Positions 2 through 16,179 of a DNA stretch of 16,179 nucleotides are shown here, piece after piece. The notes below the pieces were generated by a model. The model searched no databases and was not told where the DNA came from. It was given only the letters and a program-made list of their open reading frames with translations. This DNA is from Nitrospinae bacterium RIFCSPLOWO2_12_FULL_45_22 (lineage in GTDB: Bacteria > 2-12-FULL-45-22). Every line of letters starts with the position of its first letter. Within the stretch, counting starts at the first letter, position 1. The stretch is taken from positions 1 to 16,179 of the forward strand of contig MHDQ01000318.1 of NCBI GenBank assembly GCA_001803565.1, in the 5' to 3' direction. A program made the position numbers and the translations under genes.

Positions 2-1255
2 CTTATCGAGAAACAAGCTGAGAGTTATGCAAAGGTCTATCAGCGCTTTAAAGATAACCCTAAGGCGCAAAGTGATGCGGTATATTATAAATTCCTGAAT
101 CAATATTATTCTAATATACTGCAGGCCAGGGAAACTGACCAACCACTGGGTCAGCATAATTTATTTGGCCCGGTGGAATTGTTCTATGCTATGGATATTG
201 TTCCTTATCTGCAATGTCATCTCAGCGCAGTCGGGCCCGCGCTTTGGGACTGTACCGAATATTTTGAGCTGGCACAGGGGTTTGGGATTGCTCCTGAGTT
301 CTGTTCTTTCGAGAAGTTACGGATCGGCTATATATTAGCGGATTCGATAACTAAACCCGATTTTATTCTTGGCACCAATCTTTACTGCACCGGGAGTATG
401 AAGACCATGCTTATGGCCGCCCAAAAATGGGATATACCCTATTTTATTATAGATGCCCCGTATACCCGGGATGAAGCCTCCATAGATTATTACGCAGGGC
501 AAATGAAAAAAGCAGTAGACTTTTTGGAAGCCCAAACCGGAAGAAAGATGGATTATGACCGGCTGCGGGAATTGACGCAAAAAACGAAAAAGTGTTTTGA
601 TTATTTTCGGGAATTAGTTGAACTCCGCAAACTACCTTCTACGCCGGTGAGCTTTGTTAATGTGGCCAAGGGAAATGACATGTTGGAACTGGGTGCAGGG
701 ACAGATACGGCAGTGGAATATTTCGAGAAGCTATTGAATGAAATCCATACCCAAAAGGCCGAGGGGATATCCGCGGTATCAGGAGAAAAGCTGCGGGTGG
801 CATGGTGGGGGGCGCTGCCTGGTTTTGATACCAAAATAGTGCGGTGGTTGGCCCAGGAGCATGGGGTAAATATTGTGCTCGATCTCTTTACCCTGCTTGG
901 TCCCCCGATTGAGACCGGTGAACACCTGAGCAATCCCCTCAAATATATTGCCCGGAAAACATTGAGTTTCCCGGTAGCCAGGCTTAGCGGACTTTTTTCT
1001 GATGTCTCTCAGGATATTACTCGGGTCGCTAAAGAAAGCAAGATAGATGCCTGCATAATATATACCTCCCTGGGGTGTACTCAGATCAGCGGGATTCGAA
1101 AGATCTATCGAGATGCGGTTACAGAAAAATTAGGGATCCCCACGTTTATCCTCGATGGGGATTATTGCGATTCCCGGGTCATTTCTGCCCCGCAGGTCAG
1201 AGCTAAGCTTGCAGAATTTTTTGCCTTGCTGGAACACAAAAAAAGCCAGGGTTAG
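2..1255 (+). CDS. 2-hydroxyacyl-CoA dehydratase / benzoyl-CoA reductase-type subunit (HgdB-like), 5' truncated
   Basis: The reading frame is open to the left edge from base 2, giving 417 codons; the true start lies outside the window. A GTG at 173 is internal, because homologous-looking sequence continues upstream of it (LFGPVELFYAMDIVPY). The protein belongs to the HgdB/BcrB/BcrC family, which binds a [4Fe-4S] cluster and removes water from, or reduces, acyl-CoAs by a ketyl-radical route in the cytoplasm. Likely cluster cysteines, numbered from base 2, are C101 (PEFCSFEK), C359 (SLGCTQISG) and C389 (DGDYCDSR). The last two blocks match the family's C-terminal GC and D-D-R region. It heads a likely operon with the next two genes, 77 bp upstream of a second family member. 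The two could form a heterodimer like HgdA/HgdB. No ASKHA-type ATP-dependent activator is visible in the window. The substrate is unknown; a double-cubane-type reductase is an alternative. Confidence 0.85.
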   Translation, partial: LIEKQAESYAKVYQRFKDNPKAQSDAVYYKFLNQYYSNILQARETDQPLGQHNLFGPVELFYAMDIVPYLQCHLSAVGPALWDCTEYFELAQGFGIAPEFCSFEKLRIGYILADSITKPDFILGTNLYCTGSMKTMLMAAQKWDIPYFIIDAPYTRDEASIDYYAGQMKKAVDFLEAQTGRKMDYDRLRELTQKTKKCFDYFRELVELRKLPSTPVSFVNVAKGNDMLELGAGTDTAVEYFEKLLNEIHTQKAEGISAVSGEKLRVAWWGALPGFDTKIVRWLAQEHGVNIVLDLFTLLGPPIETGEHLSNPLKYIARKTLSFPVARLSGLFSDVSQDITRVAKESKIDACIIYTSLGCTQISGIRKIYRDAVTEKLGIPTFILDGDYCDSRVISAPQVRAKLAEFFALLEHKKSQG

Positions 1256-1332
1256 GCCGACATAATCTTTCCCACGAAGCAGGTAGTAGCCAAAGGATAT
1301 TCTCAAATCTCTCGCAAAGAAAGGGGTTAAAT

Positions 1333-2451
1333 ATGATAGAGGCATTTCAAGAATCATTTTTAGCGCGGTTCGCTAAAGCCAAAAACCATAAAGCATCTGG
1401 TCAAAAAATAATCGGTTGGATGTGTATTTACACACCCGAGGAGTTGCTTCACGCCGCGGGTTTTTATCCCTTCAGAATCCTGGGAAACCCGGGTGAGACC
1501 CTTCAAGCCGATGCATATTTCCCCCCCAATATGTGCTCTTTTACCAGAAACTGCCTGGAAGGGGTCTTTGACGGGACATATGACTTTCTGGATGGATTCA
1601 TAACCAGTAACAACTGCGACCATATCCGCCGTTTCTATGATATCTATTATGAGTATCGAGACAGACCCTTTATGCAGATATTGAATGTTCCCAATATTAT
1701 CTCTCCCGAGTCGGAAGCATTTTTTATTCAGCAATTGCGGGATCTGAAAAAGAGTTTAGAAAAAAAATTTAACCTGCCGGAGATATCGGATAGGTCCATT
1801 AAAGAGTCCATCCGGCTATTCAACCGGATGCGGGAACTATTGAAAAAAGTTTACTTACTCAGGACCTCGCAGCAGCCACCGATCACCGGAGTAGAGGCAT
1901 TAGAGATTGTCAGAGCGGGTATGGTACTCCCCAAAGAGGAATATAATCCTATGGTGGAGGATTTTTTACAAAAAATATCCGAAAAAGCGCCTGGTGGCGG
2001 CGACCATGACTATCGGCTTCTCCTTACTGGGAGCGAAATGGATGATGTGGATTATATTAAATTGATAGAAAGTCTTGGTGGCTTGGTGGTAACAGATGAT
2101 TTATGCAATGGGAGCAGATATTTCTGGGACCTGGTTGATGAAGAGGAAAAAGACCCGATAGTAGCTTTAGGAAAACGATACCTGAAACATGCTCCTTGCG
2201 CCCGGATACAACCTATAGATAACAGAATCAATCACCTGCGAGAAATGATAAAGACCTTTTCGGTGGATGGAATTATTATGCAGTATCTAAAATTTTGTGA
2301 TCTCTATGGAGCAGACCTCCCTTTATTAAAAAGGGCAATCAAAGACCTTGATATACCTCTGCTCTGTTTGGACAGGGAGTATGGGGTAGGGGGTGTGGGC
2401 CAGATGAAGACCAGGGTCCAGGCATTTTTTGAAGTGCTGGAAGCAGCTTAA
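1333..2451 (+). CDS. 2-hydroxyacyl-CoA dehydratase-type subunit (HgdB/FldB family)
   Basis: This 372-residue protein is of ordinary family length. ATG at 1333 follows AAGGGG at 1321-1326. The N-terminal block GWMCIYTPEELLHAAGFYP (residues 28-46) is the family hallmark (P-E-L..AaG..P). Likely [4Fe-4S] ligands are C68 (PNMCSF), C95 (NNCDHIRR) and C322 (KFCDLYG). The C-terminal LDREYG...TRVQAFFE block is also typical. The protein should act with the upstream subunit as an oxygen-sensitive acyl-CoA dehydratase or reductase that takes one electron at a time from an activator or ferredoxin. The following gene, a ferredoxin-like protein 20 bp downstream, is a plausible electron donor. The sequence does not say whether the substrate is an aliphatic 2-hydroxyacyl-CoA or an aromatic acyl-CoA. 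Confidence 0.88.
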   Translation: MIEAFQESFLARFAKAKNHKASGQKIIGWMCIYTPEELLHAAGFYPFRILGNPGETLQADAYFPPNMCSFTRNCLEGVFDGTYDFLDGFITSNNCDHIRRFYDIYYEYRDRPFMQILNVPNIISPESEAFFIQQLRDLKKSLEKKFNLPEISDRSIKESIRLFNRMRELLKKVYLLRTSQQPPITGVEALEIVRAGMVLPKEEYNPMVEDFLQKISEKAPGGGDHDYRLLLTGSEMDDVDYIKLIESLGGLVVTDDLCNGSRYFWDLVDEEEKDPIVALGKRYLKHAPCARIQPIDNRINHLREMIKTFSVDGIIMQYLKFCDLYGADLPLLKRAIKDLDIPLLCLDREYGVGGVGQMKTRVQAFFEVLEAA

Positions 2452-2471
2452 ACAGGAAAGGAGGAATAATC

Positions 2472-3539
2472 ATGGGAAATGAAGTATTTGAAAGTCTAAG
2501 GGAGCATCTTCATAAATTGCCCTTAGGGGCGCCGAAAACCGGTAAGGGTGTTGAAATCTCTCTCCTGAGAAAGCTCTTTACTGAAGAGGAGGCCAAATTA
2601 GCTACCTTACTTACTCCTATTCCTGAACCGGTAGATGCCCTCGCTAATAGGATGGGAATGGATAAGAAGGAATTGTCTGAAAAATTAGATAAAATGTCGC
2701 GTAAAGGATTAATCTTTCGCATGGGAGAAGGAGAGCAAACAGCATTTAATTTAGTTCCTATCCTCCCGGGGATTTATGAATTCCAGGTGAATAATATAGA
2801 TAAAGAAACAGCAGAGATATTTGAGGAATATTATACCGCCGCCTTAGGCAACGAAGTTTTTGCCGCCCCAACTCCTTTTATGAAGGTTGCACCGGTGGAA
2901 AAAGAAATCCCTTCTGAAATAGAAGTATTCCCCTATGAGAAGGTCTCCGAGCTCATCAAAGAGGCGGATACGATTGCTGTAGCCGATTGTATATGCCGGA
3001 AAGAGCAGAAATTGGTGGGGAAAGGCTGCGAAGCACCCACGGACAACTGCTTATTATTTGGCCATTGGGCTCGATTTTATGTCGGGAACGGTTTAGCGAG
3101 ACAGATTAATCAGGACGAAGCCCTTGAGGTGTTGAATAAAGCTGAAGAGGCGGGTTTAGTCCACTGTACGAGTAATACCCAGGTGGGTCATATGGCTATC
3201 TGCAATTGCTGTGGCTGTTGCTGCGGTATTCTCAGGGGTATTACTCATCTAAAAAATCCTCGGGCAGTCGCTAAATCGGATTTTGTCCTTAGTATCAATA
3301 CCGAAGAATGTATCGGTTGTGGAGCCTGTGTGGATAGGTGCCAGGTAAAGGCCCTCGAACTCCAAGATGATGTCGCAGTAGTAGACCGGGAAAGATGTAT
3401 CGGTTGCGGGGTATGTGTGATGACCTGCCCGGTTGAAGCCCTGAGCCTGGAGAGGAAAAGGGCTGATGAAATAGGAGTGCCGGCACAGGATTTTACCGCG
3501 CTGATGGTCAAGATAGGTCAAGAGAAAGGGAGGTTATAA
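2472..3539 (+). CDS. Winged-helix / Cys-rich / 2x[4Fe-4S] ferredoxin protein
   Basis: A 355-residue protein; ATG at 2472 follows AAAGGAGG at 2457-2464 with 7-nt spacing. Three parts are visible. Residues about 25-90 look like a winged-helix fold (TLLTPIPEPVDALANRMG...LDKMSRKGLIFR). A central Cys-rich part holds C173-x-C175-R, C186, C193 and the cluster CNCCGCCC at 244-251. A C-terminal bacterial-type diferredoxin has CIGCGACVDRC (C280, C283, C286, C290) and CIGCGVCVMTCP (C309, C312, C315, C319). It is probably cytosolic, with no signal peptide or membrane helix. As the third gene of the dehydratase operon, it most likely passes electrons to that enzyme. The winged helix could instead bind DNA or be only structural. 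It has a paralogue at 7157-8263 with the same layout. I do not know a named function for this architecture. Confidence 0.8.
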   Translation: MGNEVFESLREHLHKLPLGAPKTGKGVEISLLRKLFTEEEAKLATLLTPIPEPVDALANRMGMDKKELSEKLDKMSRKGLIFRMGEGEQTAFNLVPILPGIYEFQVNNIDKETAEIFEEYYTAALGNEVFAAPTPFMKVAPVEKEIPSEIEVFPYEKVSELIKEADTIAVADCICRKEQKLVGKGCEAPTDNCLLFGHWARFYVGNGLARQINQDEALEVLNKAEEAGLVHCTSNTQVGHMAICNCCGCCCGILRGITHLKNPRAVAKSDFVLSINTEECIGCGACVDRCQVKALELQDDVAVVDRERCIGCGVCVMTCPVEALSLERKRADEIGVPAQDFTALMVKIGQEKGRL

Positions 3540-3557: not shown

Positions 3558-3899
3558 CTAATCAGTCTCTATTTCATGGACCAAGAGTTCCATTCCCTGG
3601 GTAAGGTTTACCTCTTTGCTTTGACACTGGGGGCAAGAAAACTGGTAATTCTCAACCAGAAAAATAGCTTGACATTGATTACATTGCCCTTGGATGGGTA
3701 TTTTTTCTATATCAATTCTTGCCCCCTCAGCCAGAGTCCCTCGAGAAACAAAGTCAAAGCAAAAAGAGAGGCTTTTGGAGACAATCCCCCGCATCTCTCC
3801 AGCCTTGATCTTGATACTATTGATGCGGGTGGCCTTATTTTTCCTGGCTTCTTCCTCTACAATCCTCAAAATATTCTGGGCAATGGATAACTCGTGCAT
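3558..3899 (-). CDS. hypA: HypA nickel-insertion chaperone
   Basis: A 113-residue protein, the usual HypA length. It starts MHEL, where His2 and the following Glu form the nickel site of the family. Its zinc ribbon has C73-x2-C76 and C89-P-x-C92. HypA delivers nickel to [NiFe]-hydrogenase precursors together with HypB. The gene begins 12 nt after the hypB stop, so the two are co-transcribed as the last genes of the mutase operon. It converges on the preceding plus-strand operon with only 18 bp between the stops, and no clear terminator hairpin is visible there. No hydrogenase structural gene is present in the window, so the client is unknown. Confidence 0.95.
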   Translation of the reverse strand: MHELSIAQNILRIVEEEARKNKATRINSIKIKAGEMRGIVSKSLSFCFDFVSRGTLAEGARIDIEKIPIQGQCNQCQAIFLVENYQFSCPQCQSKEVNLTQGMELLVHEIETD

Positions 3900-3911
3900 T
3901 TTTTCTATCTC

Positions 3912-4559
3912 TCAGGAGATTAAGTTCCCTCTCAGCCAGTCTAACCATCTAGACAACCCTTCATCTGTCCTGCAGGATAGTTCAATAATTTCCAACTGGG
4001 GATTGATTTGCCGGGCATTCGCTTTAGCCGATTCCATGGAGAAATCGGTATAAGGGAGCAAGTCTATTTTATTAATCAACATGACCGATGATTCTCTGAA
4101 CATTAGGGGGTACTTGAGAGGTTTATCATCCCCTTCGGTAACACTGAGGAGCATGACCTTATGATGTTCTCCCACCTTAAATTCCGCCGGGCATACCAGG
4201 TTGCCGACATTCTCAATAAATAGGAAGTCCAGTTCCTCCAAGGGCAAATCATCTATAACCCCTTTGATCATACTGGCATCCAGATGGCAAACGCTCTTGG
4301 TATTTATCTGGACAATGGGGATCTCCAATTTCTCCATCCTTTCTGCATCCCTGGTGGTCTCTATATCTCCTTCTATGACGCCTATCTTATATTCTTTACC
4401 TAAACTTTTTATGGTCGTCTCTAAAAGGGTGGTTTTACCTGATCCCGGAGCACTCATCAGATTAAGAACGAGTACTCTAGATTTATCAAACAAACTCCTA
4501 TTCTGGAGAGCTATATGGTCATTTGCCTCCAAGATATCCTCTAATACTTTAATTTTCAT
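3912..4559 (-). CDS. hypB: HypB GTPase, nickel-insertion chaperone
   Basis: A 215-residue SIMIBI-class G3E GTPase. Walker A is SAPGSGKTT (36-44), the switch region is GDIETTRDAER (64-74), the G-domain metal-site motif is CHLD (C91, H92) with C123 in ENVGNLVCP, and the base-recognition motif is NKID (163-166). The N-terminal CxxCGC high-affinity nickel site and the His-rich stretch of some HypBs are absent. HypB uses GTP hydrolysis to load nickel, with HypA, into [NiFe]-hydrogenase. ATG at 4559 follows AAAGGA with 8-nt spacing. The gap to the upstream mutase small-subunit gene is 222 bp and contains two palindromes, so hypBA may be read through from the mutase promoter or have its own. G3E relatives such as MeaB service B12 mutases, but the sequence here is HypB, not MeaB. 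Confidence 0.93.
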   Translation of the reverse strand: MKIKVLEDILEANDHIALQNRSLFDKSRVLVLNLMSAPGSGKTTLLETTIKSLGKEYKIGVIEGDIETTRDAERMEKLEIPIVQINTKSVCHLDASMIKGVIDDLPLEELDFLFIENVGNLVCPAEFKVGEHHKVMLLSVTEGDDKPLKYPLMFRESSVMLINKIDLLPYTDFSMESAKANARQINPQLEIIELSCRTDEGLSRWLDWLRGNLIS

Positions 4560-4592: not shown

Positions 4593-4643
4593 CCCCCTCA
4601 CCCTAACCCTCTCCCCTCAGGGGAGAGGGTTAGGGTGAGGGGG
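4593..4643. repeat. Perfect inverted repeat, 24-bp arms, 3-nt loop
   Basis: Arms 4593-4616 and 4620-4643 are exact reverse complements around the loop TCA. The arms are built from CCCTAACCC/CCCTCTCCCC-type units. The element sits alone between hypB and the mutase small subunit. Similar C-rich palindromes occur as dispersed repeats in many bacterial genomes. In RNA it would form a very stable hairpin that could attenuate read-through or protect the mRNA 3' end. It lacks a U-tract on either strand, so it is not a typical intrinsic terminator. Confidence 0.9.
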
Positions 4644-4781: not shown

Positions 4782-5186
4782 TTACTGCCTGCCTGCCCTT
4801 TCCCGGATAAAATCTACTATTTCCTTTACCGGTGTGCGGCTAGAAAAGACCTCCGCTACACCCATGTCTTTCAATCGAGGGACATCTTCTAAAGGAATCG
4901 GCCCTCCTACGATCACCAAAAAGCTTTGCTCCATCCCTCTTTCCCGCAATTGTCCCATTATTTTCTGCATTGCACCAACGTGGGCTCCAGAATAGATACT
5001 TACGCCTATCACATTTACATCTTCCTGGATAGCCGCAGAGACAATTTGGTCCGGAGTTTGATGCAGACCTGTATATATTACCTCCAGGCCCGCTTCACTC
5101 AGCCCCCGCGCTACCACGATGGCGCCCAACTCATGTCCGTCCAGGCCGGGCTTGGCCATCAATACCCTGATCCTATTCCCAGTCAT
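4782..5186 (-). CDS. B12-binding small subunit of a split acyl-CoA mutase
   Basis: A 134-residue protein consisting only of the cobalamin-binding domain of the methylmalonyl-CoA mutase family. GLDGHELGA (14-22) supplies the D-x-H-x-x-G motif whose His18 is the lower cobalt ligand. GVSIYSGAH and VVGGPIP are the other two B12-contact loops. Its length matches the separate small subunits of isobutyryl-CoA and 2-hydroxyisobutyryl-CoA mutases, about 136 residues. ATG at 5186 follows AGGAGG with 5-nt spacing, and it lies 16 bp behind the large-subunit stop, so the pair is co-translated. It should bind adenosylcobalamin and close over the large subunit's substrate barrel. Confidence 0.93.
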   Translation of the reverse strand: MTGNRIRVLMAKPGLDGHELGAIVVARGLSEAGLEVIYTGLHQTPDQIVSAAIQEDVNVIGVSIYSGAHVGAMQKIMGQLRERGMEQSFLVIVGGPIPLEDVPRLKDMGVAEVFSSRTPVKEIVDFIRERAGRQ

Positions 5187-5202: not shown

Positions 5203-6873
5203 TTAGATTAAAGCCGGGGGCACAAATTCACCAAATACTTCCTTTAAGGTTCTGGTCATTTCGCCGATAGAGACATAGGTTTTGGCTGCATCAATGAGAT
5301 AAGGCATCAAATTCTTTTTTTCTCTGGCGGCATCCTTTAATCTGGTTAGGCATCCTTTTACCTGCTCATGGCTTCTGGAGGCCTTAAGGCTTTTCAGACG
5401 TTCAATATGCTTGTTTATTGCTTCCATATTGGGTTTGTGCATGGTCAGTCTTTCTCTTGGATCTCGTTCGCCCTCTATTTGATATTTATTTCGCCGGACA
5501 ATAACACGTTGGCCATTGGCTATCTCGCGCTCCACCTGGTGATAATACTCGAGGATCTGTCTCTTCATATAGCCCGATTCAATGGCTGCAGCCGCCCCGC
5601 CCTGATTTTCTACCTCCTGTAAAACATTGACTATTTTATGCTCCATCTGGTTAGTAAGCCACTCAATATAAAATGAGCCGCCCAGAGGATCAACCGTTTT
5701 GGTAATATTAGTTTCCTCTGCCAGTATCTGTTGGGTACCTAATGCCAGGCTCTGACTTTTTTGGTCAGGGATAGCAAACACTTCATCAAAACCGGGATGG
5801 GGAGTTGCCTGAGCACCGCCTAATGCTTGAGCGAGACCTGCCAGGGCAGCCCTTACTAGATTTAACTCCGGTTCCTCAAATTGTAACCAGAGGGGGCAGG
5901 CCAGGGCCGTGAATTTTAGGGCCATAGAAGCCGGGTTTTTAGCACCATATCTATCGCGTAGCAATTTTGCCCATAAACGTCTGGCGGCCCTATATTTTGC
6001 TACTTCCTCGAAGATATGGGGTGTGGTAGAAAAGAAAAAGGTAAATTTTGGGGCAATCTCATCTACCTTCAATCCTCTCTCCAAGGCTTCATTCAAGAAA
6101 CATAAGGCATTGGAGAAACTAAAACCTACTTCTTGGGCCATATTGGCGCCGCCCTCACTCATATTCACTCCCTTGATATTGATGGGATAAAATTTAGGTA
6201 ATTGTTTTGCGGCATATTCTATTAAATCAGTCGCGAGGCGCACGCTGTGTCGTAAAGAAAAAACTGTGGTGCTCTTTGATACCGCCGTACTTAATGGGTC
6301 GTTGGAGATAGAGCCGGAGAGTTCTTTTTGGGACACCCCCCTTTTTTCTGCAGCAGCTATGTACATAGCTACTATCAAGGGGGCCAGGGTCTCCATGTTG
6401 GAATAGAAAGGAACTTTTCCTATGGGTAAGTCTTCAAAGAGGATCTCAATATCTTTAGTAGTGCAGATGGGGATGCCTACCCGGCCCACATCATCCTCTG
6501 CCTGGGGATCGTCAGAATCTAATCCCATATGACTGGGTAAGTCATAAACAATACTGAAACTGGGCTGGCCAGCCTTATAAAGAAATTTCCACCTTCTGTT
6601 GGTATCTTCTGGAGTATCAAACCCGGTAAAAACACTATAGCGCCACGGTTTATGCCGCGACATTTCTGGGTAAGGCCCCCGCGTGAAGGGATATTCTCCC
6701 GGAAAGCCGATATCTTTTAAATAATCACTCAAATTAACATCAACTGGGGTATAGATAGCTTTGATCTCTATGTCCAGGTCAGTCTTGATAGGAGAAGAAT
6801 CTTTTAATCCATATTCCTTTTCCCACCTTTCTTGTTCCTGGGTAATCTTTTTTAAATCATTTCCCTCCACCAT
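5203..6873 (-). CDS. Large subunit of a divergent B12-dependent acyl-CoA mutase
   Basis: The protein has 556 residues from ATG 6873, chosen because TAAGGAGG lies just upstream; a TTG at 6900 is in frame but lacks such a site. The fold matches the TIM-barrel subunit of methylmalonyl-CoA mutases: PGEYPFTRG, DSDDP, FRAARRLWAKL-like KYRAARRLWAKLLRD, and TVDPLGGSFYIE are all conserved. Substrate-facing loops are not. By ungapped comparison with the Propionibacterium enzyme (from memory), Tyr89 is Ser72 (YPEMS), Gln197 is Ser190, Arg207 is Lys200, Tyr243/His244 are Val236/Asn237 (KGVNMSEGG), and the His328/Gln330 loop is also replaced. It should therefore rearrange a CoA ester other than methylmalonyl-CoA. 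The name isobutyryl-CoA mutase would be equally unsupported. It is first in an operon with the small subunit and hypBA. Confidence 0.88.
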   Translation of the reverse strand: MVEGNDLKKITQEQERWEKEYGLKDSSPIKTDLDIEIKAIYTPVDVNLSDYLKDIGFPGEYPFTRGPYPEMSRHKPWRYSVFTGFDTPEDTNRRWKFLYKAGQPSFSIVYDLPSHMGLDSDDPQAEDDVGRVGIPICTTKDIEILFEDLPIGKVPFYSNMETLAPLIVAMYIAAAEKRGVSQKELSGSISNDPLSTAVSKSTTVFSLRHSVRLATDLIEYAAKQLPKFYPINIKGVNMSEGGANMAQEVGFSFSNALCFLNEALERGLKVDEIAPKFTFFFSTTPHIFEEVAKYRAARRLWAKLLRDRYGAKNPASMALKFTALACPLWLQFEEPELNLVRAALAGLAQALGGAQATPHPGFDEVFAIPDQKSQSLALGTQQILAEETNITKTVDPLGGSFYIEWLTNQMEHKIVNVLQEVENQGGAAAAIESGYMKRQILEYYHQVEREIANGQRVIVRRNKYQIEGERDPRERLTMHKPNMEAINKHIERLKSLKASRSHEQVKGCLTRLKDAAREKKNLMPYLIDAAKTYVSIGEMTRTLKEVFGEFVPPALI

Positions 6874-6957: not shown

Positions 6958-6986
6958 ATTATACTCTCCTGAAATCCTTATTCCAA
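6958..6986 (-). promoter_or_regulatory. Sigma-70-like promoter of the mutase operon
   Basis: On the minus strand, TTGGAA (6986-6981) is followed by a 17-bp spacer and a perfect TATAAT (6963-6958). Transcription would begin near 6951, leaving about 78 nt of leader before the mutase ATG at 6873. The rest of the gap, 6987-7156, shows no gene and no clear terminator. Confidence 0.65.
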
Positions 6987-7156: not shown

Positions 7157-8263
7157 TTACTGATGCATAACTTCTTTAATTTGTGTCTGGTGAAGTTCCT
7201 GAAATGTAGCAAAAGGTGGCCTTTTATCCTCCCTTCTTTTTAATTTAGCTGCCCCACTAAGACAGGGGGAAAGGCAAACTCCACAACCGATGCAGACACT
7301 CTGGTCTGCTACAGGATGACCATCTTCCATGGTAATTATCTCCAAAGGGCAAGCATCCACACATAGGCCACACCCTGTGCATTCCTGGTCTTCCGTAATT
7401 CGAAGAAAATATGTATCCATGATAAAATCCCTGGGCACTTTTCTGCTCTTGATGGGATATATATTCCAGCAGCAACAGGGACAACAGTTGCAATTATGAT
7501 GAACATCATCCTGACAATTATCCACAAAATGGATCAGCCCTTCTTCCTCCGTCTTCTTAATAATTTTAACCGCCTCTTCATTGGTAATTTCTCTTCCTAT
7601 ACCCTTCTCTATGACAAACCTCGCCATATCATTGAATTTTAAACAGTTCTCCAAACTGTGATTGCATTCCCTTTTCCCCAATAAGTCTCGCTGCATACGG
7701 CAAGGGCAATGGACAACCGCAATTACCTCTGCTCTCTCGATAATGCCGGTCATTTGTTCGTAAGGAAGAACTCCCTGGAGCGTGTAATCTACGGCTTTTT
7801 CAATAGGTAAATATCTAAAACTTTTGGCGTTCTCCGTTCCGCGGGCCTTATCCAAAGAGTTTGATTCTTTATAATTTTGCGCACATAACTCGGCCATTTT
7901 CTTCGCATATGAAGTATTTTCACCCTTCCAGAAGAAAATCTGAGGGAATCCAAAACCCCATTGAATAAAACCATAACCGGGTTTTCCGGAACCAGTGGTC
8001 TCCTTATAAACAAAGCCTTTTTTAGCCAGACCTTCCAGGGCTTTACCAGCTTTTTCAGGCTCTATACCTGCCCTCCGGGCTATGATATCTATTTCTTCTA
8101 CTTCGAAGGGAGGCAAATTAGGAGGCAATCCTAAGATTACTTCTAATTCGTCCTGAGCAAGGTTATATTTAAGCAATTCTATCATAGCATCAGACCTGCC
8201 ATACCCCAATCCTATATTCTCCAAATGTTCTTTAAGGGCCTCTTCAATATTTCGTTTTTCCAT
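7157..8263 (-). CDS. Winged-helix / Cys-rich / 2x[4Fe-4S] ferredoxin protein (paralogue)
   Basis: A 368-residue protein starting at ATG 8263, preferred over an in-frame ATG at 8296 because AAGGAGG lies at 8274-8280, properly spaced from 8263 and downstream of 8296. It has the same plan as the protein at 2472-3539. A winged-helix-like part spans residues 40-85 (IDIIARRAGIEPEKAGKALEGLAKKGFVYKE). A Cys-rich centre has HC186-P-C188-R, C200, C207 and CNCCPCCC at 258-265. A C-terminal diferredoxin has C295, C298, C301, C305 and C324, C327, C330, C334. The second motif reads CIGCGVCLSPCL, with Leu replacing the usual Pro after the last Cys. It is a single-gene transcript with its own promoter and lies between two metabolic blocks. 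It probably serves as an electron carrier or redox-sensing partner of one of them; the actual role is unknown. Confidence 0.82.
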   Translation of the reverse strand: MEKRNIEEALKEHLENIGLGYGRSDAMIELLKYNLAQDELEVILGLPPNLPPFEVEEIDIIARRAGIEPEKAGKALEGLAKKGFVYKETTGSGKPGYGFIQWGFGFPQIFFWKGENTSYAKKMAELCAQNYKESNSLDKARGTENAKSFRYLPIEKAVDYTLQGVLPYEQMTGIIERAEVIAVVHCPCRMQRDLLGKRECNHSLENCLKFNDMARFVIEKGIGREITNEEAVKIIKKTEEEGLIHFVDNCQDDVHHNCNCCPCCCWNIYPIKSRKVPRDFIMDTYFLRITEDQECTGCGLCVDACPLEIITMEDGHPVADQSVCIGCGVCLSPCLSGAAKLKRREDKRPPFATFQELHQTQIKEVMHQ

Positions 8264-8312
8264 TGGTAAAATTCCTCCTTTTGTAAAATGATTCAATCAG
8301 CATAAAGGCCGA

Positions 8313-8870: not shown

Positions 8871-9617
8871 GTGGATATAAGGGATCTAAAAGTGAAAATA
8901 CTGGGAATTGTAGCCACGCCTATAAAGAATGGGAATACCCAATTTATTGTAAATGAGGCGTTGCGAATGGCTGAAGCGGAAGGTCCTGTGGAAACAGAGG
9001 TCATCCATCTGGAGGACTATCAGATTGGTTATTGTACTGGCTGTGAGGGCTGTTTGAGAAAGGTGCATAAGGTGCAGCAAGAGGTGGGTTGTGACATAAT
9101 CCCGGTTCCGATAAAGGAATATAACTGCACTATTAAGGATGATATGGAGGTATTGCACCGCAAGCTCTTAGAGTGTGATGGTCTTATTCTGGGTGCCCCA
9201 GTATATATTGCTACCATACCTGCCCAGCTCAAGACATTCCTGGACCGTTGTCGTACATTCGTCCATGACTATCGCCTCAGGGGAAAGGTGGCCCAGGCGC
9301 TAACCGTTGCGTTTTACCGGAATGCCGGTGAAGATACGGCTCTCGCGGCAATGAATATTACTTTGCTCGGCTTAGGCTTCACCATAGTTGGCTATGGAGG
9401 ATCCACGGTATCTACCAGGGAAGGATTAGGCATCCTTGTGAGAGGGAAACGAATCGCAGTCACTGAAGACCAACTGGGTATGATGTTGATAAGGACGGTT
9501 GGCAGCCAGGTAGCCCAATATGCTCTCCGCCTTAAAGCAGGGACCAGGGCGCTTAAGGAGGCAGGTATCGAGCTTCGCGAGAAGGCGATGTATGCTGTTC
9601 CCGGCAGTAAGAAGTAG
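8871..9617 (+). CDS. Iron-sulfur flavoprotein (NADPH-dependent FMN reductase family)
   Basis: The gene starts with GTG at 8871, set by AGGAGG at 8859-8864 and 6-nt spacing, giving 248 residues. The N-terminus LGIVATPIKNGNTQFIVNEAL (11-31) is the FMN phosphate loop of flavodoxin-like reductases. C55-x2-C58-x2-C61 followed by C74 is the compact Cys motif of iron-sulfur flavoproteins. GAPVYIATIPAQLKTFLDR (108-126) is the family's flavin-contact and helix block. These proteins are soluble FMN plus [4Fe-4S] electron carriers in anaerobes, sometimes linked to oxygen or radical defence. A longer-than-usual insert between C61 and C86 (HKVQQEVGC...YNC) carries two further cysteines. It lies 201 bp upstream of the glycyl radical enzyme and may supply electrons to its activase. 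Confidence 0.85.
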   Translation: MDIRDLKVKILGIVATPIKNGNTQFIVNEALRMAEAEGPVETEVIHLEDYQIGYCTGCEGCLRKVHKVQQEVGCDIIPVPIKEYNCTIKDDMEVLHRKLLECDGLILGAPVYIATIPAQLKTFLDRCRTFVHDYRLRGKVAQALTVAFYRNAGEDTALAAMNITLLGLGFTIVGYGGSTVSTREGLGILVRGKRIAVTEDQLGMMLIRTVGSQVAQYALRLKAGTRALKEAGIELREKAMYAVPGSKK

Positions 9618-9732
9618 CATTTCGGTGCATACCTCCTTATATTGCACTCATTACGCAATGATCATTCAAAACATAATGATGTTGACTCACTGGAGCCATG
9701 AGTGTTTCAGAGGCCATACAGAAAAAAAAGGC

Positions 9733-9761
9733 TTGACAGAAAATAGGGGGTATGGTAGAGG
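9733..9761 (+). promoter_or_regulatory. Possible promoter of the glycyl radical enzyme operon
   Basis: A perfect TTGACA (9733-9738) is followed 17 bp later by TAGAGG (9756-9761, poor) preceded by an extended -10 TG at 9753-9754. Further upstream, AATGATCATT at 9657-9666 is a perfect 10-bp palindrome that could be an operator. Both are weak evidence. Confidence 0.35.
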
Positions 9762-9788
9762 GAGTTAAAACTTAGAGAAAGGACATCA

Positions 9789-9818
9789 ATGGCAAAAATT
9801 AAAGGGGGGGTGGTTTAG
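9789..9818 (+). other. Nine-codon leader ORF in frame with, and abutting, the glycyl radical enzyme start
   Basis: ATG at 9789, with AAAGGA nearby upstream, encodes MAKIKGGVV and ends in TAG at 9816-9818, immediately before the enzyme ATG at 9819 and in the same frame. The ORF contains the run of seven G at 9804-9810 that is also the enzyme's ribosome binding site. It could be a translation-coupling leader or chance. Confidence 0.25.
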
Positions 9819-12362
9819 ATGGTAAGTCCCAGGAGAGAAGATTTGGAGGCATTAGCTAAACCCGGTAGTATAAGCTTTGCTGACCGAGCGGTAAAGGCAA
9901 AGCCGTATGAATGGGGATTCGGTTCAACACTAAGGGTGGCTAAACTACGAGAGGGTTTATTCTCTAAAGCTGCCGTAATAAGGGATTGGTCAAGCCTGGG
10001 CCGGGGTGTTACTACCTTCAGGAAGGATGTCAAGGTAGACATGGACCGCGCCAGACTCGTCACTAAGTCCTATAAAGAGACGGAGGGGCAACCCTGGCCC
10101 ATCCGGAGGGGAACGGCACTTTATAAACTCTGCGACGAGCTCCCTATCTATATAAAACCCCAGGACCTGATCGTTGGTAACCCCAATAGCGCCCCGGACG
10201 AGGTACGTTGGTATCCGGAGGCCGATGTGAGCTATATGCCCCAGGCAGTTACTGAAGGTGGCTATCAACATATGCTTACAGATGAGGAGAAGCAAGAATT
10301 AATAGGGGATATTTATGAGTATTGGAAGGACAAGACCCTGGAGGCATCAGTGCGGAAGGTCTTACCGGAGGATATCAAAAACTTCTGTGATATTGGTCCT
10401 TACTCGACAGCCGGTTATGCCAATTTCTGGCGCTCGCCTCGGGGTCTGGCTAACCCTGATTGGGAAGGAATATTGCAAGATGGGATTGCTGCCCGGATAA
10501 AGCGTATAGAGAATAATTATGCCCGCCATAAAGCCTGCATGCCAGAGACTATGAACCCAGTCGAGTATATCAAGAGGTGCCATAACTACGAGGCGATGAT
10601 AATTGCCGGGAAAGCTATCCTGCGGTTAGCAGAGCGATATGCAGAATTGGCCGCTGAACTAGCCAAAAAAGAGAAGGATGAGAAGCGGAAGAAGGAGTTG
10701 GAAGAGATTGCTGAGGTCTGCCGTTGGGTGCCAGCTAATCCGCCCAGGACCTTTCGTGAGGCCCTTCAGGCCTATTGGCTAATCGAAGTAGTATTTCGCT
10801 TTCTCGAGGCCCCTAGTAATGGTAGTGGCTGCAGGCTGGACCAGATCTGGTACCCTTATTATAAAAAGGATATTGAGGAGGGCAGTATCTGCCGGGCAGA
10901 GGCCCTGGAACTGATAGAGTGCTGGATGCTGAATGTAGAAGAGACCGGGATGCATTGCGAGGCACCCGATACCTTTACTGTAGGGGCCGGCGGCTCTATC
11001 TTCTATACTGCCAATATTGCTGGTACTGTTGATGGCAAAGATGCCTCCAATGATCTGACCTGCGTTATTATGGAGGCCCTCGCCAATGTCCGTACCTCAC
11101 AGCCACCTATCGCCTTCCGCTATTCCCCTAAGGTTTCACCTGATGTTATGGTACGGGCCATTGACCTTTGTCGTACCGGCACTGGACACCCGGCCTTCTT
11201 CAATGAAGACCTGTTCAGCCGTTACTCATTGCTCCAGGGAAATCCAGCCGAAGATACCGAGAAATTTGCCGTAGCCGGCTGTATGGCCCCCACTATTACA
11301 GGCAAGTCCTTGAATGCCGGGGCCTACGGAGTCGCTGGTATCTATACGCCGATGAAGTCGTTGGAGTTGGCCCTCTGGCAAGGGGTGGACAAGATCAGTG
11401 GGCTTAAAGTAGGGGCTGATACCCCTGACCCCCGGAGCTTTAAGGATGCCCATGACCTGCTCAAGGCCGTTGGTATTCAGCAGGAAACTATGGTTAGACG
11501 CTATGCCCTGTCTCATGATCTGGGATTTACAGTGTTGATCGAGCGATTCCCTATGCCAGCCACCTCGTTCCTATTAGATGATTGTCCAGATATGGGTATA
11601 GATGTAAACGAGATGAGCCGTAAGTATAATAGCTGGCCCTGCCTCGCGGGGGCGGAATTCAGCACCCTGGCCGATTCTCTGGCGGCTGTCCAGAAACTTA
11701 TTTATGAGGATAAGAAGGTTAGTTGGGATGAGTTGCTGGAGGCCCTGGAAGCAAATTGGGAAGGTAGAGAAGAGTTGCGACAGCTCTTCCTGCGGGCCCC
11801 TAAATACGGTAATGATGATGACTATGCCGATAACTGGGCCGTCTTTGCCCGCAAAGAGGTCTTAGCGGCAACGGCCCGGGTCAAGGATGCCTGGGGCAAA
11901 TCCTGGGCATATGACGGAAGTACCGGTATTTCTCCCATGGCCCTTCCCCGGGGGGTGTATGCTACTCCGGATGGACGCCGGGCCAGTGAACCGGGGGCGG
12001 ACTCTAGCCTGGCACCTTGTGCGGGCAGAGATACCAAGGGGCCTACAGCGGTTCTTAACTCCATCAGAAAAATACCTTTTATGATGAATGACTTGTTGAA
12101 CCAGCGGTTCATGCCCATGTTCCTGGAAGGGGATAACCGGGAGCTCTTTTTCCACTATCTCCGACAATGGTACGAGGGGAGGAATTCTTACCATGTCCAG
12201 TTCAATGTGGTTAATAACGAGCTGCTAAAAGAGGCCCAGCTCCATCCCGAGAAACACCAAGACCTGATGGTGAGGGTAGCGGGCTATAGTGCCTATTTTG
12301 TTGACTTGCCAACGGAGGTACAAGACCATGTCATTGCCCGGACAGAACAGACCTTCGCCTAA
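9819..12362 (+). CDS. Glycyl radical enzyme, X-succinate synthase (BssA/AssA)-like
   Basis: An 847-residue full-length glycyl radical enzyme. The C-terminal radical site is RVAGYSAYFVDL with Gly822. The thiyl loop is AGCMAPTITGK with Cys488. The 334-residue spacing matches the family. The Glu two residues after Cys found in choline lyase, glycerol/diol dehydratases and arylacetate decarboxylases (GCVEP) is replaced by Ala, and pyruvate formate-lyase's double Cys is absent. From memory, the loop CMAPxxTG and blocks such as APKYGNDDDYAD, HVQFNVV and PTEVQDHVIARTEQTF match benzylsuccinate synthase closely. That enzyme's fumarate-binding Arg, 15 residues after the Cys, is here Tyr503, with no Arg nearby. 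BssB/BssC-like small subunits are not seen. The activating enzyme is the next gene. It likely activates a C-H bond and may add it to an acceptor other than fumarate; the substrate is unknown. Confidence 0.9.
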   Translation: MVSPRREDLEALAKPGSISFADRAVKAKPYEWGFGSTLRVAKLREGLFSKAAVIRDWSSLGRGVTTFRKDVKVDMDRARLVTKSYKETEGQPWPIRRGTALYKLCDELPIYIKPQDLIVGNPNSAPDEVRWYPEADVSYMPQAVTEGGYQHMLTDEEKQELIGDIYEYWKDKTLEASVRKVLPEDIKNFCDIGPYSTAGYANFWRSPRGLANPDWEGILQDGIAARIKRIENNYARHKACMPETMNPVEYIKRCHNYEAMIIAGKAILRLAERYAELAAELAKKEKDEKRKKELEEIAEVCRWVPANPPRTFREALQAYWLIEVVFRFLEAPSNGSGCRLDQIWYPYYKKDIEEGSICRAEALELIECWMLNVEETGMHCEAPDTFTVGAGGSIFYTANIAGTVDGKDASNDLTCVIMEALANVRTSQPPIAFRYSPKVSPDVMVRAIDLCRTGTGHPAFFNEDLFSRYSLLQGNPAEDTEKFAVAGCMAPTITGKSLNAGAYGVAGIYTPMKSLELALWQGVDKISGLKVGADTPDPRSFKDAHDLLKAVGIQQETMVRRYALSHDLGFTVLIERFPMPATSFLLDDCPDMGIDVNEMSRKYNSWPCLAGAEFSTLADSLAAVQKLIYEDKKVSWDELLEALEANWEGREELRQLFLRAPKYGNDDDYADNWAVFARKEVLAATARVKDAWGKSWAYDGSTGISPMALPRGVYATPDGRRASEPGADSSLAPCAGRDTKGPTAVLNSIRKIPFMMNDLLNQRFMPMFLEGDNRELFFHYLRQWYEGRNSYHVQFNVVNNELLKEAQLHPEKHQDLMVRVAGYSAYFVDLPTEVQDHVIARTEQTFA

Positions 12363-12379
12363 AAAGTCAGTACCCGGGG

Positions 12380-12436
12380 CCAGGGATCGGGGCTCAGATT
12401 TATGATCTTTAAATAATGCTGCTCCCTGCTCCCTGG
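12380..12436. repeat. Imperfect inverted repeat downstream of the glycyl radical enzyme
   Basis: CCAGGGATCGGGGCTCAG (12380-12397) is inverted at 12419-12436, whose complement reads CCAGGGAGCAGGGAGCAG, with several mismatches and a 21-nt loop. It resembles dispersed cagggagcaggg repeats. It could also form a partial terminator, but no strong U-tract follows. Confidence 0.5.
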
Positions 12437-12451
12437 TTCATAATAAAGAGA

Positions 12452-12500
12452 TGTAGCGTGAAAGCTTGCTTTCATAATGCGAGCAAGCTCGCACGCTACA
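12452..12500. repeat. Compound REP-like palindrome (TGTAGCGTG family)
   Basis: An outer 9-bp inverted repeat TGTAGCGTG (12452-12460) / CACGCTACA (12492-12500) encloses two hairpins: GAAAGC-TT-GCTTTC (12460-12473) and GCGAGC-AA-GCTCGC (12479-12492). The inner stems share the core AGCTTGCT or its complement but differ in flanking pairs. It lies in the 166-bp gap between the enzyme and its activase; a relative occurs at 13456-13480. Confidence 0.75.
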
Positions 12501-12528
12501 TTGCAAATCCCGGTAGAAAATAGCTGAA

Positions 12529-13455
12529 ATGACTGATTATCAACGCAAAGGTTATGTATTCAATATCCAGCGCTTCTCTATCCATGATGGCCCGGGTATA
12601 AGGACTACTGTCTTTCTGAAAGGCTGCCCCTTGAGGTGTAGCTGGTGTGCTAACCCGGAATCACTAAGACTCCTCCCAGAGATTATTACCCGCGATATCA
12701 AATGTATCAAGTGCGGGAAGTGTATCAAGACCTGCCCCCAGTGTGCTATCGCTGCCGAAGACCATGTGCAGAGAACTATCCATTGGGAAAAGTGTGACCA
12801 ATGTCTGCAATGTGCTGAGGCCTGCCCGGCTGGCGCCATAGAGGTAATGGGTAAATACCTTTCCGTAGACGAGGTTATTGAAGAAGTCTTGAGGGATCTC
12901 CATTTCTATACCGACAACAGTGGCGGTATGACCCTGTCCGGTGGTGAGCCGTTGTCCCAATGGCAATTCGCCCTCGATCTACTTAGAGAGGCTAAACAAA
13001 AGGGATTACATACGGTATTGGATACCAGCGGGTATACGGACTGGGAGATATTGGAGAAAATTTTAGAATATACCGATTTAGTGCTCTACGATATTAAGCA
13101 TATGGATGATGAGCTCCATCAGCGAGAAGTAAAGGTCTCTAACCGCCAAATCCTGGCTAATCTGGAGAAGGCCGCTAGCCGGTCAAAGACCAGGATCTGG
13201 GTCCGCTGCCCGGTCATACCGGATTTCAATGATACCGACGAGCATTTCCGGCAGATGGCCAGCTTTATCCTGGGGCTAGGAAAAGCCGTGGATAAAGTAT
13301 CCCTCCTGCCTTACCATCGGTTTGGCGAATTAAAATATAGCGCGGGCGGGAAGAAATATCCTTATGAAGGAAAACCTCAAATACCTGATGAAAAGATAGA
13401 GTACCTGAAACAGCTCCTAGAATCCTATCAGTTAGTAGTCACCCTCAAGAGTTAA
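12529..13455 (+). CDS. Glycyl radical enzyme activating enzyme (radical SAM)
   Basis: A 308-residue protein with the hallmark N-terminus FNIQRFSIHDGPGIRTTVF. The radical SAM motif GCPLRCSWC has C33, C37 and C40, and SGGEP lies at 137-141 for SAM binding. An inserted diferredoxin carries C59, C62, C65, C69 and C89, C92, C95, C99, as in activases of benzylsuccinate synthase, choline lyase and similar enzymes. It cleaves SAM to abstract hydrogen from the enzyme's C-terminal Gly (Gly822 of the preceding gene product). ATG at 12529 has only a weak ribosome binding site, and the 166-bp gap upstream holds two palindromic repeats. Its partner is clearly the adjacent glycyl radical enzyme. Confidence 0.93.
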   Translation: MTDYQRKGYVFNIQRFSIHDGPGIRTTVFLKGCPLRCSWCANPESLRLLPEIITRDIKCIKCGKCIKTCPQCAIAAEDHVQRTIHWEKCDQCLQCAEACPAGAIEVMGKYLSVDEVIEEVLRDLHFYTDNSGGMTLSGGEPLSQWQFALDLLREAKQKGLHTVLDTSGYTDWEILEKILEYTDLVLYDIKHMDDELHQREVKVSNRQILANLEKAASRSKTRIWVRCPVIPDFNDTDEHFRQMASFILGLGKAVDKVSLLPYHRFGELKYSAGGKKYPYEGKPQIPDEKIEYLKQLLESYQLVVTLKS

Positions 13456-15020: not shown

Positions 15021-15233
15021 ATGCATGAAAAGGAAATAGAGGTAAAAATACAGAAGCTTCCCGATGATTTGAGGGGAGAGGTTTTAGATTATGTGGACTT
15101 TCTGCTAAGCAAATATCAAAAAAGAGAAACTGTGAGGAAGAAATTCAAGTTCGACTGGGAAGGTGGACTATCAGAGATAAGAGAGAAATTTACTTCTGTT
15201 GTGCTACAACACAAGGCTTTGGAGTGGAGATAA
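15021..15233 (+). CDS. DUF2281 / VapB-like antitoxin
   Basis: A 70-residue protein starting at ATG 15021 behind AAAAGGAGGT with 7-nt spacing. KLPDDLRGEVLDYVDFLLSKYQK (18-40 approximately, partly quoted as LPDDLRGEVLDYVDFLL) is the DUF2281 signature; the basic, Trp-containing tail KFDWEGGLSEIREKFTS is also typical. These proteins are antitoxins encoded just ahead of PIN-domain VapC ribonucleases, which they bind and neutralise. Here the stop codon TAA overlaps the start codon of a VapC-like ORF by one base, the expected arrangement, but that toxin is broken after 12 codons (next entry). It is thus an orphan antitoxin. Confidence 0.8.
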   Translation: MHEKEIEVKIQKLPDDLRGEVLDYVDFLLSKYQKRETVRKKFKFDWEGGLSEIREKFTSVVLQHKALEWR

Positions 15234-15271
15234 TGTTTTTAGTGGATACGAATGTAGGAAGTCTATTATGA
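15233..15271 (+). pseudogene. Truncated VapC (PIN toxin) N-terminal stub
   Basis: ATG at 15233 overlaps the antitoxin stop and encodes MFLVDTNVGSLL, then TGA at 15269-15271. MFLVDTNV is the usual first strand of PIN toxins and includes the first catalytic Asp. The rest of the roughly 130-residue domain is missing and is not found in other frames. The stop overlaps the ATG of the next gene as ATGA, which suggests the downstream gene now uses this stub for translational coupling. Confidence 0.6.
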
Positions 15272-16179
15272 ACGAATTGATTGTGCAATATTATCATAGC
15301 AATAATCCTACCTGTCAAGTTGGTTATCGTTCTGAACCTGGCATACAAGAGACAGACAAGTTCCCGTTCACTTTCAGCCTTCCAAAGGAAGATCGGGAGC
15401 TTCTCCAGTGGTATCTTGAAGAGTATCTTACTTATCCCTACGGCGCCTTCCAAGACCGTGCAAAGCGTGCTGAAAAAGTCATTTCTGACCAGGGTGAGAA
15501 ACTATTTGCTGCAATCTTCCGCAATGAGAAGGATAAAAGTCAATCTGCCATCAGGTTCTATGACCGTGCTATGGAAAATCCAGCCGATTGCCACATCATT
15601 ATCCAGGCCGACCACCCCGCTGGCTGGTCCCTGCCATGGGAATTCATGTATGACCCTGCCTATGTATACCTTGTGCAAAAAGTAAGCGGATTTGTGCGGA
15701 GTCATCCTGGAGCTGGCGTTCATCTTAAACCCATACCCACGGATACACCTAAGATCAATATTCTGATGGTTATCTCTCGCCCGGGTGGCGAGGAAGATGT
15801 TCCTTTTCAATCGGTGGCCCGGCCTCTGATGGAGATATTTCGACCACACCGAGATCGCATTCAATGCGATGTTCTGCGTCCGCCAACTTATGAGCAGTTA
15901 CAAAAGGTACTGGCAGACAAACCAAATTTTTATCATATCTTACACTTTGACGGACATGGCGTATTCCCACATCCCGGAAGCATAGACCACCTTACCTTCC
16001 TGTTAGAGCAAGGGTCACCAGGACAACTTGTATTTGAAAAAGCCGGTGGCGGAAGCCGTTTTGTCTCTGGATCAGAACTTGGCAATCTGCTCTCAGGTAA
16101 AGGCATTCCAGTGGTGATGCTGAACGCATGTCAATCTGGTATGACCCACCCTGATATGCTATATCCCTCCATCGGTGGC
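15268..16179 (+). CDS. CHAT-domain (caspase-like) protein, 3' truncated by window edge
   Basis: The frame from ATG 15268 is open for 304 codons to the right edge. AGGA at 15256-15259 gives an 8-nt-spaced ribosome binding site. Residues 1-110 are an uncharacterised N-terminal part. GWSLPWEFMYDP (119-130) is the LPWE block common ahead of CHAT domains. HILHFDGHG (223-231) holds the catalytic His230, and VVMLNACQSG (282-291) the catalytic Cys288. CHAT proteins are clan-CD cysteine peptidases (caspase/separase relatives), often with TPR or NTPase domains behind them, and some act in defence or cell-death systems. What follows here is unseen. The gene is fused onto a broken toxin-antitoxin locus, a sign of recombination. 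The family is secure from the His/Cys motifs; the target is unknown. Confidence 0.85.
   Translation, partial: MNELIVQYYHSNNPTCQVGYRSEPGIQETDKFPFTFSLPKEDRELLQWYLEEYLTYPYGAFQDRAKRAEKVISDQGEKLFAAIFRNEKDKSQSAIRFYDRAMENPADCHIIIQADHPAGWSLPWEFMYDPAYVYLVQKVSGFVRSHPGAGVHLKPIPTDTPKINILMVISRPGGEEDVPFQSVARPLMEIFRPHRDRIQCDVLRPPTYEQLQKVLADKPNFYHILHFDGHGVFPHPGSIDHLTFLLEQGSPGQLVFEKAGGGSRFVSGSELGNLLSGKGIPVVMLNACQSGMTHPDMLYPSIGG

Follow-up and report, generated by a model that had tools for sequence, protein, structure and literature searches.

The window, a stretch of 16,179 nucleotides, derives from a 3.67-Mb genome that is 85% complete and belongs to a poorly known phylum. Two minus-strand genes near its middle encode the large and small subunits of a predicted adenosylcobalamin (AdoCbl)-dependent acyl-CoA mutase. 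In addition to the features below, the window encodes a SPASM radical SAM protein.

2-3539, plus strand: HGD-D pair and an iron-sulfur protein
3558-4559, minus strand: hypB-hypA
4595-4641, no strand assigned: inverted repeat of 47 nt with 20-bp arms, CCCTCACCCTAACCCTCTCCCCTGAGGGGAGAGGGTTAGGGTGAGGG; possible terminator or dispersed element
4782-5186, minus strand: B12-binding small subunit, 134 aa, with an intact DGHELG motif
5203-6873, minus strand: acyl-CoA mutase large (TIM-barrel) subunit with a rewritten pocket, 556 aa
6884-6889 (approximate position), minus strand: ribosome-binding site before the ATG at 6873, GTAAGGAGGAAAGGAAAAATG on the minus strand
6958-6986, minus strand: sigma-70-like promoter candidate, TTGGAA-17-TATAAT, 10/12 matches
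7157-8296, minus strand: second iron-sulfur protein
8871-13455, plus strand: FMN reductase, glycyl radical enzyme and activase
15199-16179, plus strand: CHAT-domain (caspase-like) protein, continuing past the end of the contig

The large-subunit open reading frame occupies exactly 5203-6873, is full length and intact, and begins with an ATG; a good ribosome-binding site (AGGAGG) stands before it. The small-subunit gene starts 16 nt downstream, and a 222-nt gap containing the inverted repeat separates the mutase genes from hypB. The number of sigma-70-like sites in the region is not above chance, and the promoter candidate is therefore weak evidence. The small subunit scored 139 bits against TIGR00640 (cut-off 57.45) and, by sequence comparison, conserves D16, H18, G21, S63 and GG94-95; it thus carries both the DxHxxG (DGHELG) and GG motifs that define the base-off/His-on AdoCbl class. 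Replacement of the MeaB chaperone by the neighboring HypB was considered and rejected as unneeded: the genome encodes a genuine MeaB (a single match, on contig C153), the intervening gap holds the inverted repeat, and HypB and HypA each score well against their own family. A functional link between the mutase and its neighbors, the HGD-D pair and the glycyl radical enzyme, was also rejected, since the neighbors are encoded on the other strand and form separate transcription units. Moreover, 67 HGD-D matches are scattered over the genome, which makes HGD-D adjacency weak evidence.

An initial sequence-only reading of this locus had proposed that the scaffold of the methylmalonyl-CoA mutase (MCM) family is intact, and profile and structural data bear this out. 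The large subunit matches PF01642 with an E value of 1e-161 (539 bits against 22.1) and TIGR00641 with 513.7 bits (curated cut-off 303.8). Among PDB sequences it matches 2-hydroxyisobutyryl-CoA mutase best (HCM; 4R3U, E 2.8e-123) and human MUT second best. An AlphaFold model (pLDDT 79, pTM 0.82), built from 13 sequences and of low confidence in loops 50-81 and 360-369, superimposes on 4R3U with a TM-score of 0.86, the range to MCM and HCM structures being 0.81-0.86, and a structure search with the model retrieved the same structures as the PDB sequence search. Collectively, these profiles and the MCM-type fold place the protein in the superfamily. NCBIfam equivalog cut-offs for MCM and IcmF were missed widely, with 420 bits against PRK09426 (MCM) where 876 are needed and 202 bits against the IcmF model where 1500 are needed. 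The MCM beta profile (mmCoA_mut_beta) gave 175 bits against a cut-off of 617, a score that, together with the intact B12 motif, does not fit an inactive MCM beta chain.

To read the pocket, we used the phmmer pairwise alignment to PDB chains and four MAFFT alignments of different sequence sets, with numbering of Propionibacterium shermanii MCM (PsMCM) taken from chain 5REQ, where the Y89F mutation fixes the offset. The pocket strands are gap-free in phmmer and MAFFT alignments alike, so residue register is not in doubt. Correspondences (PsMCM = large subunit) are as follows.

Y75=Y68, T77=E70, M78=M71, R82=K75, T85=R78
R87=S80, Y89=F82, S114=S107, F117=Y110, S164=Y157
T166=N159, T195=S188, Q197=S190, D199=D192, R207=K200
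N236=Y229, Y243=V236, H244=N237, R283=K276, S285=T278
F287=F280, H328=T322, Q330=L324, Q361=Q355, N366=P360, E370=E364

Four substitutions listed in the sequence-only reading were recovered: Gln197 to Ser, Arg207 to Lys, Tyr243-His244 to Val-Asn, and the His328/Gln330 loop to TALACPL. The fifth, Tyr89 to Ser, was wrong. Tyr89 aligns with Phe82, and Phe at this site is also found in IcmF and ICM-like sequences; Ser72, opposite the MY-motif Tyr in the alignment, is probably the serine that was meant. Further changes, absent from that reading, were apparent (R82K, T85R with R87S, T77E, F117Y, S164Y, T166N, T195S, N236Y, R283K, S285T and N366P), while Tyr75, Met78, Ser114, Asp199, Phe287, Gln361 and Glu370 are unchanged. 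Arg82, Arg207 and Arg283 are each replaced by Lys, and basic charge is largely conserved. The idea that lost Arg, Tyr and His equivalents might be supplied from shifted positions, named beforehand as a finding that would count against a new specificity, holds in part and for charge only, in that Arg87 is lost and an Arg stands at the Thr85 position. It fails for histidine, as no His gain compensating for His244 or His328 was seen at the listed pocket positions. A new tyrosine, Tyr157, occupies the Ser164 position at a strand end (E156-158) in the AlphaFold model.

These changes are not spread evenly over the protein. We defined conserved columns as those at least 95% identical among 36 canonical members (n=96), and the large subunit differs at 44 of them, with 33 of the 44 in eight active-site segments. 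The proportion changed was 33/51 within these segments versus 11/45 elsewhere (Fisher P 9e-5). Using a list of known MCM pocket positions that was not derived from coordinates, 14/19 pocket positions were changed versus 30/77 others (P 0.0095). Clustering of changes in active-site segments argues against random decay.

Few acyl-CoA mutase reactions are known. The expectation that named mutases keep the Tyr-His pair held for human MUT, P. shermanii MCM (5REQ) and HCM 4R3U, and extends to an annotated IcmF, the MCM-like and ICM-like copies of the same genome, and one likely ethylmalonyl-CoA mutase (ECM) from Tritonibacter, assigned by taxon and length. The window protein resembles HCM in best PDB match, TM-score and separate large and small subunits, but HCM has Ile at the Tyr89 site and Gln at 207 and retains Tyr-His, Gln197, His328 and Gln330, whereas the window protein has Phe, Ser, Lys, Val-Asn, Thr and Leu at 89, 197, 207, 243-244, 328 and 330. 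With the MCM alpha chain (1REQ, 2XIQ) it shares the fold, the barrel strands, Asp199, Glu370 and Gln361; in contrast, Tyr89, Gln197, Arg207, Tyr243, His244, His328 and Gln330 are all replaced (F82, S190, K200, V236-N237, T322 and L324). It has the Phe at the Tyr89 site of ICM/IcmF (4XC6) and the Tyr at the Asn236 site of IcmF, but those enzymes have Gln at 207 where it has Lys, and keep Tyr-His, Gln197, His328 and Gln330; unlike IcmF, it has no fused GTPase. The lost Tyr-His, Gln197 and His328/Gln330, the missed equivalog cut-offs and a tree position outside MCM support the prior assessment that the protein differs from the named mutases. PDB entry 1E1C is the H244A mutant of MCM, a mutant that reportedly shows His244 to be important for catalysis. 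The substrate-binding sites of known acyl-CoA mutases are highly similar, according to a review (PMC2847961).

In a careful IQ-TREE analysis with pocket columns removed, the window protein joined L095, from another phylum (G172), and L010, its own paralogue on contig C309, at 100/98; both partners are uncharacterised. The window-protein branch is long (0.8-0.9). AU tests rejected placement of the window protein with MCM (p 0.030) and were borderline for HCM (p 0.052), while the whole trio with MCM was not rejected (p 0.27). Placement inside a characterised clade, which the sequence-only reading had said would overturn it, is not supported for the window protein, although its trio as a whole may still be kin to MCM. 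N236Y was discarded as a private marker of the trio, as IcmF also has it.

The closest full-length relative in 386 genomes is L095 (G172 contig 31; 45% identity, 549 bits), whose B12 small subunit is 55% identical to that of the window. Unlike the window protein, L095 keeps His244, Gln197, Arg207 and Arg87, with Y, Q, R, C-H, A and G at 89, 197, 207, 243-244, 328 and 330. Its neighbors encode a type III CoA transferase, an MmgE/PrpD protein, an enoyl-CoA hydratase and a second mutase. Neither an orthologue above 45-46% identity nor a Val-Asn relative was found in the 386 genomes or in a pattern scan of genome contigs from 84,980 species. The complete pocket is so far a singleton.

Eleven proteins without Tyr243, His328 and Gln330 form a wider set, supported at 86/84 in IQ-TREE without pocket columns and at 0.997 in FastTree with them. 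It includes mutases of a plasmid-borne module from Marinobacter, Sulfitobacter, Diaphorobacter and Paraburkholderia, which are 38% identical to the window protein and likewise lack these three residues but keep Tyr89, Gln197, Arg207 and His244 (Tyr, Gln, Arg, Ala-His, Gly and Val at 89, 197, 207, 243-244, 328 and 330). Sisterhood with this module was strong with pocket columns (0.997), was lost in a quick tree without them and was moderate in the careful tree (86/84), so kinship with the module is tentative. In these cultured Proteobacteria (L110 7078-12065, L111 7126-11912, L113 7104-12119 and L123 6243-11116) the conserved module comprises enoyl-CoA hydratase, mutase, B12 subunit, type III CoA transferase and MeaB, adjoining TRAP-type or other transporters. 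We found no described function for the module. By analogy only, the gene content of the module and of the L095 neighborhood suggests that the window protein's branch may help to degrade organic acids, imported or CoA-activated. In the window itself, no substrate-defining gene (CoA ligase, CoA transferase or other) is present.

The source genome contains about eleven mutase genes, of which about nine are non-canonical. Two pockets are canonical, with all pocket residues present: C136, MCM-like, and C220, ICM-like. Residues at 89, 197, 207, 243, 244, 328 and 330 in other copies are IRTQHAQ (C207), LQCQHHQ (C134), FSKVNTL (the window protein, C318), VQ-RNHQ (C85), FPHYEAE and GCWYNDQ (both C286), ISTAAHN (C265) and YNRVLNV (C309). 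This variety among paralogues is consistent with diversification for different substrates. The C85 mutase, with Arg-Asn at 243-244, lies beside a small B12 subunit (L052 411-764, minus strand) reading DSLGHSTG, in which Leu replaces the Asp of DxHxxG. In another copy, on C300 (L056 7040-8736, plus strand), a frameshift or an assembly error divides the gene into two frames; the small subunit that comes after it is intact. A 2.5-Mb genome of another candidate phylum (G033) has 19 PF01642 matches (L069-L087), most with non-canonical pockets of similar spread. On a Sphingobium plasmid that came from contaminated soil, a non-canonical mutase operon is present twice (L109 8549-11654 and 18886-19653), adjoining AMP-ligase and thiolase genes and transposases; its mutase has Leu, Gln, Asn and Gln-His in the pocket and groups with C134.

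On balance, the gene pair probably encodes a two-subunit AdoCbl-dependent acyl-CoA mutase of the MCM family. The small subunit would bind AdoCbl base-off/His-on, and Co-C homolysis in the barrel would yield a 5'-deoxyadenosyl radical. By removing hydrogen from a CoA thioester, this radical would initiate a 1,2 shift in which a fragment of the CoA ester moves; the single MeaB probably loads the cofactor. CoA and anion binding are probably retained, because the conserved arginines are replaced by Lys (82, 207 and 283) or shifted by two residues (87 to 85), and Lys200 may still bind an anionic group. Replacement of His244 by Asn and Gln197 by Ser, with the changes at Tyr89, Tyr243, His328 and Gln330, predicts that the thioester carbonyl is held by groups other than those in MCM and that the acyl pocket is differently shaped, which makes a methylmalonyl, isobutyryl, ethylmalonyl or 2-hydroxyisobutyryl group unlikely. 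Tyr157, which the model places at a barrel-strand end, could stand in for a lost tyrosine. The enzyme probably rearranges a substrate not previously recorded for its family, and an undescribed acyl-CoA rearrangement, as first proposed, remains plausible. Our full proposal, which we advance tentatively and with somewhat less than even confidence, is a carbon-skeleton rearrangement of an unreported CoA ester in which Asn replaces His244 and the new Tyr157 and Arg78 take over contacts, the enzyme being one member of a genome-wide radiation of rewritten-pocket mutases in a probably anaerobic phylum.

A real but minor possibility is that the protein is a catalytically silent or decaying paralogue, with a role like that of the inactive beta subunit in heterodimeric MCM, and kept by chance or as partner of another mutase. 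The main reason to entertain it is the lack of a close orthologue sharing the pocket; joint loss of His244, Gln197 and Gln330, the long branch and the split C300 gene in the same genome point the same way. Against this, the reading frame is full length, DGHELG is kept in the small subunit, the large subunit scores as alpha rather than beta type, the Arg-to-Lys replacements are conservative, and change is concentrated in the pocket with the scaffold retained. Alterations among CoA-side residues (R82K, R87S, T85R, R283K, S285T, N236Y and N366P) would fit an AdoCbl radical enzyme of the same fold with a different reaction or a non-classical substrate, such as elimination or rearrangement on a changed handle. 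This we consider unlikely, as most of the positive charge remains, Tyr75, Ser114, Gln361 and Glu370 are unchanged, N236Y occurs in IcmF too, and the neighboring HGD-D families also act on CoA esters.

Drift of a named mutase (MCM, ICM, HCM or ECM activity) with its known reaction retained would accord with the 36-40% identity to many MCM-like and ICM-like proteins and with the AU result for the whole trio. However, the genome already has canonical MCM-like and ICM-like copies, placing the window protein by itself with MCM is rejected and with HCM is borderline, and changing first-shell residues of an HCM left the enzyme inactive (PMC11599936); we regard this explanation as quite unlikely. Under the preferred reading of a rewritten-pocket mutase, a scaffold and B12 subunit kept while Tyr-His, Gln197, Arg207 and His328/Gln330 changed together make the control of B12 radical rearrangement scope testable. 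Moreover, about nine differently rewritten pockets in one genome constitute a natural library for finding new reactions.

Other genes in the window and genome also have unusual features. The proteins at 2472-3539 (plus strand) and 7157-8296 (minus strand), which flank the mutase block, have a similar layout with a Cys-rich middle and a C-terminal 2[4Fe-4S] ferredoxin domain; no further homologues were found beside the HGD-D genes examined. The glycyl radical enzyme (9819-12362, plus strand) falls far below every curated equivalog cut-off, and its Cys loop, AGCMAP, is without the Glu of dehydratases. No Arg aligns with Arg508, the benzylsuccinate synthase Arg after the Cys loop, and the enzyme appears to lie outside assigned glycyl radical enzyme types. 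The HGD-D matches (2-hydroxyacyl-CoA dehydratase/benzoyl-CoA reductase type; L140-L179) represent a very large expansion, with about 34 B-type and 33 C-type genes. Three of the B-type genes (C53:6777-7883, plus strand; C148:3053-4153, minus strand; C231:5340-6494, plus strand) have a single in-frame TGA at the position of a Cys that is invariant in all 31 other aligned copies and is probably an iron-sulfur ligand. The genome also has a tRNA-Sec gene (75 bits, above the gathering score), and these three genes are candidates for selenocysteine incorporation.
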